Below are positions 39,450-54,547 of a DNA stretch of 64,000 nt, in pieces. Under the pieces are notes generated by a model. That model was not told the origin of the DNA. It made no database searches and saw nothing but the letters and a program-made list of their open reading frames with translations. The stretch spans positions 186,001-250,000 of the forward strand of contig JAESII010000004.1 in NCBI GenBank assembly GCA_016756725.1, written 5' to 3'. The translations under genes and the position numbers were made by a program. The DNA comes from Synergistaceae bacterium (GTDB lineage Bacteria > Synergistota > Synergistia > Synergistales > Aminithiophilaceae). How positions within the stretch are numbered: position 1 is the first letter of the stretch; every line of letters starts with the position of its first letter.

Positions 39450-39509
39450 AGGGAATTCCTCCTCGGGCGGATCAGCCGAACGAGGAGGCAGGGGGCACGG
39501 AGCCCTTCT

Positions 39510-39600
39510 TGACTTCCCTTCGCCGGCATGACCCGGATCAGGTTCAAGGGGTCGGGGCGTCAAGCCCCCTCTCAGCCGGTCTCACCGACTCCCCCAGCGC
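39510..39600 (-). promoter_or_regulatory. TPP riboswitch (THI element)
   Basis: Minus strand GGGGGAGTCGGTGAGACCGGCTGAGAGGGGGCTTGACGCCCCGACCCCTTGAACCTGATCCGGGTCATGCCGGCGAAGGGAAG. Confidence 0.97.
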
Positions 39601-39690
39601 TTATGCGAGCTCTGGCTCGTGATGGAAGTTCAGGCCCCTAGGGCCTTTCGTGGCGATTCTACCAGGAATGGCCCCTTTCGTCCAAGGCGG

Positions 39691-43678: not shown

Positions 43679-43912
43679 TCAGTGTTTTTCGGGCAGGACG
43701 AAGATCTTGTGGGCCATGCCGCCTCCGAGGGCAAAGCGTGATTCCCCCAGGGCCAGCAGAAGGGGCGCCCCGGACCGGACGAGAGTGATCGTCGCCCCGG
43801 GGACGATACCCAGATCGGCCAGGCGCTTGCGGAAGGATCCGCCCCCTCCCAGGGAGGCCACCTGGAGAGGAACGCCTTCGGGTGCCGCCGTCAGAGGACA
43901 CAAGGCGAACAC
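43679..43912 (-). CDS. Second FeoA domain protein
   Basis: VPLQVASLGGGGSFRKRLADLGIVPGATITLVRSG. Confidence 0.85.
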   Translation of the reverse strand: MFALCPLTAAPEGVPLQVASLGGGGSFRKRLADLGIVPGATITLVRSGAPLLLALGESRFALGGGMAHKIFVLPEKH

Positions 43913-44580
43913 TCCCCTTCGGCGGGACAGACCCAGACTGTGGCCGCCTCACTGCGGCGAAGGGAGAGACGGGTGCCCAGAAGTTCCAGCTCCAGGGGAT
44001 CGCCGAGAGGGGACCGCTTGCGGAAGAGGACCCTCTTGCCCGGGACGAAGCCCATCTCGAGAAGCTTCTTGCGCAGAGGGCCCTCGGCGGTGACCCGCAT
44101 GATCCGCCCCTCCCCTCCGGGTTCGAGCATGGCCAGAGGCCGGGGGAGAGAGGCCGACTCGCTGAGGCGGCGCGTCAAAGCCTGAGCCCAGTCCGTTCCC
44201 TCTCTCATTCCCTGGGCGAGATAATCCGTCAGCAGGAGAAGACGGCTTTCCGATTCGTCATCCAGATTATGTTCGATGAGGCAGGCGATCTCCTCGCCCT
44301 TGAGGCGGGGAATGCCGAGGAGACCCGTGAAGAGAAAGGTCAGGTGCTCGTGGCGCCGGTAGATCCTCAGGGCCCGCCGCCTCCCCGCCTCGGTGAGGGC
44401 CGGCGTCCCGTAACGCTCGTGATCGAGAAGGCCCTCGCCGACAAGGCGCTTCAGGGCCGAGACGACGGTGCCCTTCGTCACCCCCAGGCTCTGGGCAAGG
44501 GAGGTGACGGTGGCGACACGGCCCCGGACCTCTTCGGCGAAAATTTCTTCCAGGTAATCTTCGATGCGCGAGGAAAGCAG
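43891..44580 (-). CDS. DtxR-family metal-dependent repressor with FeoA-type C-terminus
   Basis: SSRIEDYLEEIFAEEVRGRVATVTSLAQSLGVTKGTVVSALKRLVGEGLLDHERYG; HEHLTFLF; no ATG/GTG/TTG near the expected start, CTG at 44580. Confidence 0.85.
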   Translation of the reverse strand: MLSSRIEDYLEEIFAEEVRGRVATVTSLAQSLGVTKGTVVSALKRLVGEGLLDHERYGTPALTEAGRRRALRIYRRHEHLTFLFTGLLGIPRLKGEEIACLIEHNLDDESESRLLLLTDYLAQGMREGTDWAQALTRRLSESASLPRPLAMLEPGGEGRIMRVTAEGPLRKKLLEMGFVPGKRVLFRKRSPLGDPLELELLGTRLSLRRSEAATVWVCPAEGECSPCVL

Positions 44581-44650
44581 AGCGATCCACCCCTTTCTCC
44601 ACCGGAAGAGAGCCCGGCGAAGAAAGTTTACAGCATCAAACTCAGGGCGG

Positions 44651-45850
44651 TCAAGAGGCGGAAGCGAAAAAATCCTTGAGCCGCTTGAGGCCTTCCCCGA
44701 TTTCGGCCTCCGAGGTGGCGTAGCAGAAGCGGATGAACTCGCCCCGTTCTCCCTCATAGGGCGTGCCGAAGCAGTTGCGGGCGAGGACGGCGACGCCGGC
44801 CTCGTCAAGAAGGCGCTTCTGGAGGGCCTCGGCCGAGGGCAGCTTGAGTCTCCTGCAGGCCTCGGTGACGTTGGCGAAGAGGTAGAAGGCCCCCCGGGAA
44901 GGGCGGCAGGTCAGGCCGGGCAGGGCGTTGAGGCCTTCGGCCAGCAGATCGCGTCGCCTCCTGTAGGAGGCCGTCATGGCCGCCACCCCCTCCTGGGGAC
45001 CGTCGAGGGCCGCGATGCCCGCCACCTGGGTGAAGGCGGCCGTGCAGGATACGGAGTTGGTCAGCAGCGTCGTGAAGGGCTCGACGAGGCAGGAGGGCAT
45101 GACGCCGAAGCCGAGACGCCATCCCGTCATGGCGAAGGTCTTGGAGAAACCGTCGACGATGACGGTCCGGTCGGCCAGATTCTCCACGGCCAGAGCGGAG
45201 ACGAAGTCGCCCTCATAGACCATGGAGGCGTAGACCTCGTCGGAGAGGACCCAGAGATCGTGTTTTTTCGCGATGGCGCCGATCCGCTCCAGCGTCTGCC
45301 GGGGAATGACCGATCCCGTCGGGTTATGGGGCGAGTTGAGGAGGATCATGGCCGTCCGGTCCGTGACGAGCGACTCGAGCTCGTCGGGATCGACGACGAA
45401 GTCCCTCTCCTCTCTCAAGGGAAGGAGAACGGGCGTCGCCCCGGCATAATGGACCAGCGACTCGTAGGCGGGAAAGCCCGGGCTGGGGACGATCACTTCC
45501 TGCCCGGCGTCGACGCAGGAGAGAATGGCGCAGAAGAGGACGGGCTTGACGCCGGGGGTGACGACGATCTGCGAGGCCTCGACGGTGACGCCTCGCTCGC
45601 GCCTGAGGAAACGGGCCACGGCCTCCCGGAAGGCCACCGTCCCTCCCGTCGGAGTGTAGTGGGTCACGCCGTCGCGGATGGCCCGGATTCCGGCCTCCTT
45701 GACGTGATCTTCCGTGTCGAAATCGGGCTCGCCGATGGCGAAGCTGACGATCCTCCTCCCCTGGGCCTCCAGCGCCTGGACGCGGGCCAGGACCTCGAAG
45801 GCCCCCTCGCCGGAGAGTTTGCGGCTCCTGTCGGCAATTTTCATGATCAT
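44651..45850 (-). CDS. PLP-dependent aminotransferase (aspartate aminotransferase family)
   Basis: ILLNSPHNPTGSVI; DGFSKTFAMTGWRLGF. Confidence 0.92.
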   Translation of the reverse strand: MIMKIADRSRKLSGEGAFEVLARVQALEAQGRRIVSFAIGEPDFDTEDHVKEAGIRAIRDGVTHYTPTGGTVAFREAVARFLRRERGVTVEASQIVVTPGVKPVLFCAILSCVDAGQEVIVPSPGFPAYESLVHYAGATPVLLPLREERDFVVDPDELESLVTDRTAMILLNSPHNPTGSVIPRQTLERIGAIAKKHDLWVLSDEVYASMVYEGDFVSALAVENLADRTVIVDGFSKTFAMTGWRLGFGVMPSCLVEPFTTLLTNSVSCTAAFTQVAGIAALDGPQEGVAAMTASYRRRRDLLAEGLNALPGLTCRPSRGAFYLFANVTEACRRLKLPSAEALQKRLLDEAGVAVLARNCFGTPYEGERGEFIRFCYATSEAEIGEGLKRLKDFFASAS

Positions 45851-45856
45851 CGCCGC

Positions 45857-47113
45857 CTATCTGCCGTGAAGCCGGGAAGCGGCCACGAAGGAGAGCCCCG
45901 AACGGGTCAGGGCCTCGGCCGTCCTGTTCACGGCGATGTGCTTGAGGAGGTAGTTCCCCTGCAGGGCCTCCATGGCGCCGCTCGACTGGACTTCGTCTCG
46001 GCTGCGGAAGTAGTCGAGGATGCTTGAGGTATGCTCCTGCCCGACCTCGTCATCGGGGTCGCCGCCCTCGTGCTTGGCCGAGATGTTGGGGACGGACCGG
46101 GCGATCTCCAGGAGCTGGTCGCGGCGGAGGTAGGGCTGACGGACGATGGAGCGGTAGGTCTCGGTGATGTGGTGCTCGATCCGGACCTGGTCCTCCAGAC
46201 CCAGTTCCCGACGGAGCCGGGCGATCTCGCGGAGACAGTCGTCGTCGACGGAGTTGGAGATGTTGAAGCCCTCAAGTGGCGTCGAGCCGTCGCTGCGGGC
46301 GAAAAGACGGGCGCCCAGAAGGGTCCAGAGGACGGCGAAGGGATTGTCGTTGCCCATGAAGACGGAAATCTTGAACTTGATATCGACGCCGATGCGGTAG
46401 AGGAGGTAGGCGGCGAGCACCGTGCCGGGGTTGATATTGAGGACCTGACAGACGCCGTAGTTGGTGTAGTAGTGGAGGTACTCGTCGATCCACCGCAGGA
46501 CGTGTCCGTTGGGCTGGCCGATGCCCCCGAAGTAGCCCGTGATCGTGTCGGGACCGCCGAGGTGGACGTTGGAGCCGTCGGTACCTTTCGTGTCCAGCGT
46601 CTCGACGACGCTGGCTCCGATGATCTTCATCGCCGCCGCCACTGCGGGAAGATCGCCGTCGCGCTCCTGTTCCTTCATGTTGCGGACCCGGATGAAGCGG
46701 CCCGGCAGAAGTTCCCCCTCGGCGATGGCCCGCTTTGCCTCGGCGATGAGCCAGGGAAAGTACTGGAGGGCGCTGATCTCGAGGGTGACGGCACAGCTCT
46801 CGTCGACGACAGGGGCCTGGCCGTCGACGAGAGCTGCGGACCGGTACTCCGAAAGGGAGACGAAGGAACCACGGTCCCTCTCCTCCATGAGCCACTCGAG
46901 ATCCTTCAGATGAGGCGCATTGCGGCGTTCGAGCCGCTTCAGGAGACTTTCCAGGCGTCCCGCCTCACGGGCCTTCTCGTTGATCTCCTCAGGCGTTCCG
47001 TATTTGCCGACGACCCGCAGCAGATCGCGGACCAGGGGATTCTTGCCGTCACTCAGATAGCCGCTCAGTTCTGCGAAGACCTTTCCGTCCAGTTCCAGTT
47101 TTCTTTCGAGCAC
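45857..47113 (-). CDS. Conserved-looking protein of unknown function
   Basis: GTG 47113 preceded by GGGAGGG; 419-codon ORF with EISALQYFPWLIAEAKRAI...GTDGSNVHLGGPDTITGYFGGIGQPNGHVLRWIDEYLHYYTNYGVCQVLNINPGTVLAAYLLYRIGVDIKFK. Confidence 0.85.
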   Translation of the reverse strand: MLERKLELDGKVFAELSGYLSDGKNPLVRDLLRVVGKYGTPEEINEKAREAGRLESLLKRLERRNAPHLKDLEWLMEERDRGSFVSLSEYRSAALVDGQAPVVDESCAVTLEISALQYFPWLIAEAKRAIAEGELLPGRFIRVRNMKEQERDGDLPAVAAAMKIIGASVVETLDTKGTDGSNVHLGGPDTITGYFGGIGQPNGHVLRWIDEYLHYYTNYGVCQVLNINPGTVLAAYLLYRIGVDIKFKISVFMGNDNPFAVLWTLLGARLFARSDGSTPLEGFNISNSVDDDCLREIARLRRELGLEDQVRIEHHITETYRSIVRQPYLRRDQLLEIARSVPNISAKHEGGDPDDEVGQEHTSSILDYFRSRDEVQSSGAMEALQGNYLLKHIAVNRTAEALTRSGLSFVAASRLHGR

Positions 47114-47150
47114 GATGATCCCTCCCATTCGTTCTTCACGGCCGACAGGC

Positions 47151-47190
47151 AAAAAAAAGAGGCCAGGTCCCCCTTCGAGGGCCCTGGCCT
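47151..47190 (-). terminator. Leader terminator (attenuator candidate)
   Basis: Minus strand AGGCCAGG-gccctcgaaggggga-CCTGGCCT C TTTTTTTT, 37 nt before the start codon of the downstream gene. Confidence 0.8.
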
Positions 47191-47207
47191 GAAGCTGACC
47201 GGCAGCA

Positions 47208-47285
47208 CTAAGGCGCGCCGGCCCCTCCAGGAGGGCCGTCGCACATAGCCATGGCGGCAGCGAGGAAACGCTTTGTCAGGTCCAT
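47208..47285 (-). CDS. Candidate 25-aa leader peptide
   Basis: AAAGGAGG SD, ATG 47285, MDLTKRFLAAAMAMCDGPPGGAGAP*. Confidence 0.6.
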   Translation of the reverse strand: MDLTKRFLAAAMAMCDGPPGGAGAP

Positions 47286-47332
47286 GTCCTTCAGGCCTCC
47301 TTTCGGGCGCGTCGCGCCACAAGTTGCGGAGA

Positions 47333-47361
47333 ATCATAGGGCAGACGAAAAGGGCTGTCAA
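47333..47361 (-). promoter_or_regulatory. Sigma-70-type promoter of the leader transcript
   Basis: Minus strand TTGACA-17 nt-TATGAT. Confidence 0.75.
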
Positions 47362-47533
47362 CCCCCAAAAGTCAGCTTCCCCCCCGGCAGGGCCTCTTCA
47401 AGTTCCGTGACCTTCCCGTCTCTTGCCGGTAGAATCTTGAAATCCCTTCGAGGCACTTGGAGCGAGTCCGCTTTTGGTCTAAAATGATCAGGCTCTTTGC
47501 TCTCTTTTTCGACCGCAAAAGGAGGTCTCTCCC

Positions 47534-54377: not shown

Positions 54378-54431
54378 CGGCAACGGCAAAGGCCGATAGA
54401 GTGTTGCCTCAAGCATACAAGTTCATATGGA

Positions 54432-54547
54432 GGCCTCCGAGCTCTCCCGTCTAAAGGAGATGATCCCATGACGGCGAGCCGTCGGGTGCAGCTGGAAACG
54501 GCTGTGCCTCCCGTCCGGAAAGGGGGGATACTCGCACGTCCGAGGCC
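54432..54547 (+). promoter_or_regulatory. Candidate molybdenum/tungsten cofactor (Moco/Tuco) riboswitch
   Basis: P1 GGCCTC/GAGGCC; internal stems TCTCC/GGAGA, GACGG-CGAG-CCGTC; conserved-looking GCCTCCCGTCCGGAAAGG segment. Confidence 0.6.

Follow-up and report, generated by a model that had tools for sequence, protein, structure and literature searches.

The attenuators of the thr, leu, ilv, trp, his and phe operons of Proteobacteria combine a leader open reading frame (ORF) carrying sensing codons with alternative hairpins and act on amino-acid targets, and the locus described here is built likewise. A survey published in 2013 found Rfam leader motifs for His, Leu, Thr and Trp only, and their origin was placed in gamma-proteobacteria (PMC3766115). 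The trp, ilv and cys leaders of Actinobacteria also have short ORFs with sensing codons before terminators (PMC1262725, PMC11857589, PMC10272879). In the trp attenuators of Actinobacteria, different species share conserved short complementary triplets, and the survey describing them detected no RNA element upstream of the methionine or threonine operons of this phylum (PMC1262725). Regular leader peptides outside Proteobacteria are represented by the histidine leader attenuators of Firmicutes, which serve one amino acid only (PMC2965389, PMC9413887); the his genes of Synergistetes have been reported to be under the control of the repressor HisR (PMC9413887). A survey that included Thermovirga lienii (Synergistetes) reports uORF candidates, two of them located before shikimate genes and carrying Phe/Tyr codons; for this species, its main text gives the SLH motif alone and no multi-amino-acid family (PMC6429828).

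No description of attenuators in Synergistota was found in the open-licence literature. In this work, we analyse a putative leader-peptide attenuator located in a 64,000-nucleotide stretch of a Synergistaceae genome (this whole stretch is called the window) and compare it with related leaders of the phylum.

Organisation of the locus

The initial annotation had placed on the minus strand a promoter, a Shine-Dalgarno sequence, a 25-codon leader ORF, a terminator with U8 and a downstream gene, and each of these elements was found where it had been read. The features of the locus, given in window positions, are as follows:

47361-47333, minus strand: sigma-70-type promoter TTGACA-17-TATGAT (TTGACA 47361-47356, 17 nt, TATGAT 47338-47333)
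47303-47296, minus strand: leader Shine-Dalgarno AAAGGAGG, paired with strand 1 in the minimum-energy fold of the untranslated leader
47285-47208, minus strand: leader ORF of 25 codons, MDLTKRFLAAAMAMCDGPPGGAGAP, from ATG (47285) to the stop codon TAG (47210-47208)
47261-47244, minus strand: predicted sensing codons 9-14 (Ala Ala Ala Met Ala Met), 9-24 nt 5' of strand 1, the same position as family-wide
47237-47225, minus strand: strand 1 (GGCCCTCCTGGAG), predicted 5' side of the antiterminator, coding for Gly-Pro-Pro-Gly, from covariation with the terminator 5' arm
47223-47197, minus strand: predicted hairpin P2, which contains the leader stop codon and lies within the antiterminator, from the swap test and the fold
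47194-47180, minus strand: predicted 3' side of the antiterminator (CTTCAGGCCAGGGCC), which shares positions with the terminator 5' arm, from the swap test, the fold and distinct helices
47190-47151, minus strand: intrinsic terminator hairpin with arms AGGCCAGG (47190-47183) and CCTGGCCT (47167-47160), one C and U8 (47158-47151)
47113-45857, minus strand: controlled gene 1, encoding a 418-aa uncharacterised protein from a GTG start at 47113 (418 aa plus stop, 419 codons)
45850-44651, minus strand: controlled gene 2, encoding a class I aminotransferase (PF00155, E 3e-73)

The intrinsic terminator thus precedes the first structural gene of the operon, and a translatable short ORF with its Shine-Dalgarno sequence sits between promoter and terminator. 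The promoter agrees with the consensus at 11 of 12 positions; promoter-like sites with at least 9/12 agreement number 2 in 3 kb, compared to 0.2 +/- 0.5 in shuffled sequences. As had been noted earlier, the leader lacks a long run of one codon. Elsewhere in the window, a TPP riboswitch (39498-39605, minus strand) and a molybdenum cofactor riboswitch (54423-54541, plus strand) both match at the Rfam gathering score, and the minus-strand gene at 43891-44808, directly upstream of feoB, encodes a single chain that combines a DtxR/MntR-type repressor with a FeoA domain.

The contig is assigned to Synergistota by its nearest relatives. A DNA search of 61 related genomes detected the leader in every examined member of the window's genus. 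In two sister species, represented by leaders L113 (MSRRGPFLLAAAAMCGGPPGGAGAP) and L114 (MNQAKRFLVAAAAMATGGPPGGAGAP), the leader frame, the stop position, the terminator and the promoter, including TTGACA-17-TATGAT, are all retained. Homologous loci without the mini-ORF would have spoken against the initial annotation; the mini-ORF proved to be conserved. Since the leader anatomy recurs in two sister species, and its architecture in more than 100 related leaders, it represents more than chance. The six codons at the stall position read AAAMAM, LAAAAM and AAAAMA within the genus. In the genome carrying L114 (G001), gene 1 (418 aa) was not found in the search. An apparent remnant of its start, recognised by eye, lies between the leader and the aminotransferase gene (L114:1690-1903), so that this genome, which retains leader and aminotransferase without gene 1, represents a natural deletion.

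Predicted alternative RNA structures

Because alignments cannot hold both alternative structures in one register, pairing was assessed by per-sequence duplex energies and by a swap test rather than by column-wise pair counts. In the swap test, the pairing energy of each leader's own strands was compared with that of strands exchanged with leaders from other gene groups. Strand 1 and the terminator 5' arm paired better with their own partner than with swapped ones in 111/119 leaders, a count that, like the others given here, does not represent independent trials since the leader sequences are related. Counted by downstream-gene group, own pairing was better in 37/38, and within groups in 74/94. 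Own pairing exceeded swapped pairing in 91/119 leaders for hairpin P2, and in 75/119 for hairpin P1 (strand 1 paired to the ORF end), a result weakly supporting P1, which was used in building the covariance model; the controls gave 62/119 and 57/119. In the metQ group, the antiterminator had no advantage (-12.8 for own pairing versus -13.0), probably because the core is spaced differently. Across the family, the antiterminator occurs as 73 distinct helices, such as GGGTCCC/GGGACCC, GACCCTC/GGGGGTC and GGATCCTCG/CGGGGATCC, and each of the 152 matches read has a closed hairpin ahead of its U tract. Judged by sequence comparison, the antiterminator is supported by covariation and is mutually exclusive with the terminator.

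In the window, positions 47237-47225 pair with 47194-47180 and enclose P2. When the RNA is folded from strand 1 onward, this antiterminator is the minimum-energy state (-51.8, versus -47.8 with the terminator forced), and it has already formed at 60 nt, before the terminator 3' arm exists. With strands 1-2 masked, the terminator alone remains. In the minimum-energy fold of the untranslated full-length leader, strand 1 is taken up by the Shine-Dalgarno region and the terminator is present.

A probable attenuator family across Synergistota

The initial DNA search also matched leaders before genes for homoserine dehydrogenase (L115), metN (L116) and the 418-aa protein (L117), with weaker matches before aspartokinase (L124) and further 418-aa genes (L099, L105). 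A covariance model was built from 11 leaders, of the Met/Thr/Ala type only. At E<=0.01, it matches 118/188 Synergistota genomes, with up to 13 copies per genome. Among 50 genomes of other phyla, sampled because they carry homologues of the 418-aa gene, 3 match, marginally (best E 2.9e-4). In Synergistota, leaders of the Val/Leu/Ile and Phe/Tyr types are recovered by this Met/Thr/Ala-built model with E values of 1e-7 to 1e-13.

A recognisable ORF is present in 147 of the 152 matches read, and in 122 of these 147 leaders its frame relative to the RNA scaffold is the same. Codons for Gly-(X)-Pro-Pro-Gly have a frame and position common across the family. Most sensing codons are located 9-24 nt 5' of strand 1 (family-wide median 16 nt), and the leader stop codon is found at a median of 27 nt downstream of the start of strand 1. 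No His-type leader occurs among the family matches read. From these comparisons, the window element is assigned to a Synergistota family in which a single RNA scaffold is combined with interchangeable sensing codons.

The window's own genome (G000:C8, C9; L161, L163, L164, L165) contains family members before ilvN (leader codons SLVLVLIS), two metQ-type genes (MMMCTMMM and MMMC) and a sodium:solute symporter gene (RFFYYG); two further matches (L162, L166), in which no convincing leader is seen, are probably false. ORFs of about 45-75 codons, sharing the conserved C-terminal motif WRGPFEGY/F, directly follow branched-chain attenuators in L180, L186, L189, L215, L261 and L268. Two groups of membrane proteins (L178, L190, L196, L199, L250 and L258-L260, L284) are located behind aromatic/Ile or Leu/Val/Ile attenuators; their representatives L250 and L258 have no Pfam match, and both groups are likely to be amino-acid transporters.

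Sensing codons and the downstream genes

The proteins encoded downstream were clustered and representatives were named, which gave 71 distinct labelled leaders for a permutation test. The residues expected from the downstream gene account for 49% of the sensing segment of 11 residues, compared to 20% (sd 2.5%, max 28%) in 10,000 permutations. Sensing segments by downstream gene are:

acetolactate synthase small subunit (ilvN): VLVLVLLIS or VVVVII
ilvC: IIIVVV
ilvD: ILIIIV
leuA: SLSLLL
panB: VVVVVDV
PALP enzyme (ilvA-like): AIIIIT
PaaK-like ligase: FFFSFYYY
family-3 solute-binding protein: FFFSFFF
sodium symporter: FYFYFWF
metN, metQ, metY: MMMC
aspartokinase: AMTMTS
homoserine dehydrogenase: TTTTTMTT

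In their logic, the leaders rich in Thr and Met that precede the aspartokinase and homoserine dehydrogenase genes are similar to thrL. Leaders before the 418-aa gene in relatives read MMMCTTM, TTCTTM, TSMMMC and AMMMR, that is, methionine, in some cases with threonine. The signal predicted for the window's genus is alanine together with methionine, and it is the weakest step of our explanation, being uncertain because Ala codons are common in GC-rich leaders. The match of sensing residues to targets thus emerges from sequences of the family as a whole, and for the window leader taken alone the Ala/Met identity is plausible.

The putatively controlled genes

The 418-aa protein has no Pfam or NCBIfam match, and homologues with 58-85% identity are spread over many bacterial phyla and are also present in some archaea; a cultivated relative, the strain of CP074691.1, encodes one that is 85% identical. 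Their genes neighbour those for aspartokinase (L096, L098, L099, L105), homoserine dehydrogenase (L041, L071, L084) and aminotransferases (the window, L002, L107). Within the stretches examined, a panB homologue is found around the 418-aa gene in 53/109 loci (L002-L110; e.g., L028:4056-4922 and L008:6284-7156), usually directly beside it. Since panB adjoins the 418-aa gene in the company of homoserine dehydrogenase, aspartokinase and aminotransferase genes, an unusual route of homoserine metabolism is suggested. Our best guess is that the 418-aa protein belongs to the homoserine/threonine/methionine branch; it is speculative that homoserine is reached through PanB plus an aminotransferase.

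A confident structure model of the protein (pLDDT 90.5) is TIM-barrel-like, and a fold search with it returned TIM-barrel-like matches at a TM of about 0.35, with a best E of 1.2e-4 to class II aldolases. These matches are too weak to name the function. A PDB sequence search with the protein gave chance kinase matches only.

Proposed mechanism and alternative explanations

The proposal of the initial annotation, a leader-peptide transcription attenuator before the operon of the uncharacterised gene and the aminotransferase, is strongly supported by comparison, and we consider it highly probable that a ribosome-mediated attenuator controls this operon. The sequence comparisons on which this reading stands point to a promoter, a conserved leader ORF, sensing codons in a fixed place, an antiterminator exclusive with the terminator and agreement between codons and target genes. 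With ample charged tRNA, the ribosome would reach the stop codon at 47210 and cover strand 1 and P2, so that the terminator (47190-47151) would form and transcription would stop. Under shortage, the ribosome would halt on codons 9-14 and leave strand 1 (47237-47225) free to pair with 47194-47180 around P2 before the terminator 3' arm is made, and the operon would be transcribed. If the leader were not translated, the Shine-Dalgarno region would pair with strand 1 and the terminator would form. That a halted ribosome should free strand 1, and one at the stop codon cover it, follows from the distances of the sensing codons and the stop codon to strand 1, together with the general size of the ribosome footprint.

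The initial annotation had proposed a different switch, in which GGCCUGAAG, adjacent to the Shine-Dalgarno sequence of the leader, pairs with CUUCAGGCC and thereby both prevents terminator formation and hides the leader ribosome binding site. The complementarity is real and perfect in the window (GGCCTGAAG, 47297-47289, with CTTCAGGCC, 47194-47186; -20.5 kcal/mol), but it is conserved neither in the sisters nor in the family: GGCCTGAAG is replaced by GGCCGAGAC in both sister species, where the energy falls to -13.2 and -11.8 kcal/mol, and own pairing beats the median swap in just 49/115 leaders, a share that does not exceed chance. The minimum-energy fold, moreover, engages the Shine-Dalgarno region with strand 1, and we regard this switch as very improbable. 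About equally improbable is an arrest peptide, in which nascent PPGGAGAP before the stop codon would stall the ribosome in response to a small molecule, as in TnaC/Erm leaders. In the window's genus, the leader peptides do contain Pro-Pro and end with Pro, but the final Pro is absent outside it, the C-terminal residues follow the RNA partner, and the upstream residues change with the target gene; conservation of the near-stall peptide beyond the needs of RNA pairing, as expected of a TnaC/Erm-type leader, was not seen. The residues equivalent to PPGG vary as GGP, GDP, GSP and VGP, and since their codons co-vary with the terminator 5' arm, PPGG reflects RNA structure and not a stalling signal. 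Of the sensing elements suggested in the initial annotation, the Ala/Met-rich run upstream of PPGG is thus retained and PPGG is discarded.

A metabolite-binding riboswitch or a T-box that contains an ORF incidentally would likewise be expected to show a conserved RNA structure ahead of an amino-acid operon; we give it scarcely any credence. No Rfam family matches at gathering score and none is credible below it: the Thr, Leu, His and Trp leader families fail to match even at E<=10, and the T-box stem I specifier loop and antiterminator have no Rfam match in the window leader. Furthermore, the sensing codons, their frame, the start codon and the Shine-Dalgarno sequence are conserved across targets of different pathways. 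If the ribosome-mediated attenuator is accepted, the attenuators of different pathways could still have arisen independently and converged on one layout without a common scaffold. Strand 1 must lie between the sensing codons and the stop codon in any case, GC-rich terminators look alike, and sequences outside the core differ; nevertheless, the reach of the Met/Thr/Ala-built model to leaders of other amino acids, with almost nothing outside Synergistota, and the fact that the Gly-(X)-Pro-Pro-Gly codons keep one frame and one position speak against convergence, which we hold to be rather unlikely. The history that we propose instead, on which our judgement is evenly balanced, is that one ancestral attenuator was copied to many Synergistota operons and re-programmed by exchange of the sensing codons only, a translated analogue of the T-box; a methionine switch would further have turned towards alanine in the window's genus, and the regulon would mark the 418-aa protein as an undescribed enzyme of homoserine/threonine/methionine metabolism.

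Comparison with known systems

The attenuation mechanism itself is classical; the shared, re-programmable scaffold, its phylum and the methionine class appear to be undescribed. A methionine(/cysteine) class, not found in the literature searched, is thereby added to the leader-peptide attenuators. A little-studied, amino-acid-fermenting phylum gains a predicted codon-readable regulon of more than 100 operons in which the leader names the controlling amino acid. Testable predictions of function follow for unannotated genes, such as that of the 418-aa protein, an uncharacterised enzyme gene which the switch ties to methionine/threonine metabolism, and those of unnamed membrane proteins with aromatic or branched-chain leaders. 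The family also provides a natural series for the change of attenuator specificity.

The attenuators of Proteobacteria differ in that the Synergistota scaffold is single and serves many amino acids, and the actinobacterial leaders, unlike the Synergistota family, do not have a scaffold common to pathways. Closer in this respect is the T-box, which likewise uses one scaffold for many amino acids, has its specificity set by a codon and reads tRNA charging. However, the T-box is untranslated and binds tRNA directly, whereas the reader in Synergistota would be a ribosome in a conserved ORF.
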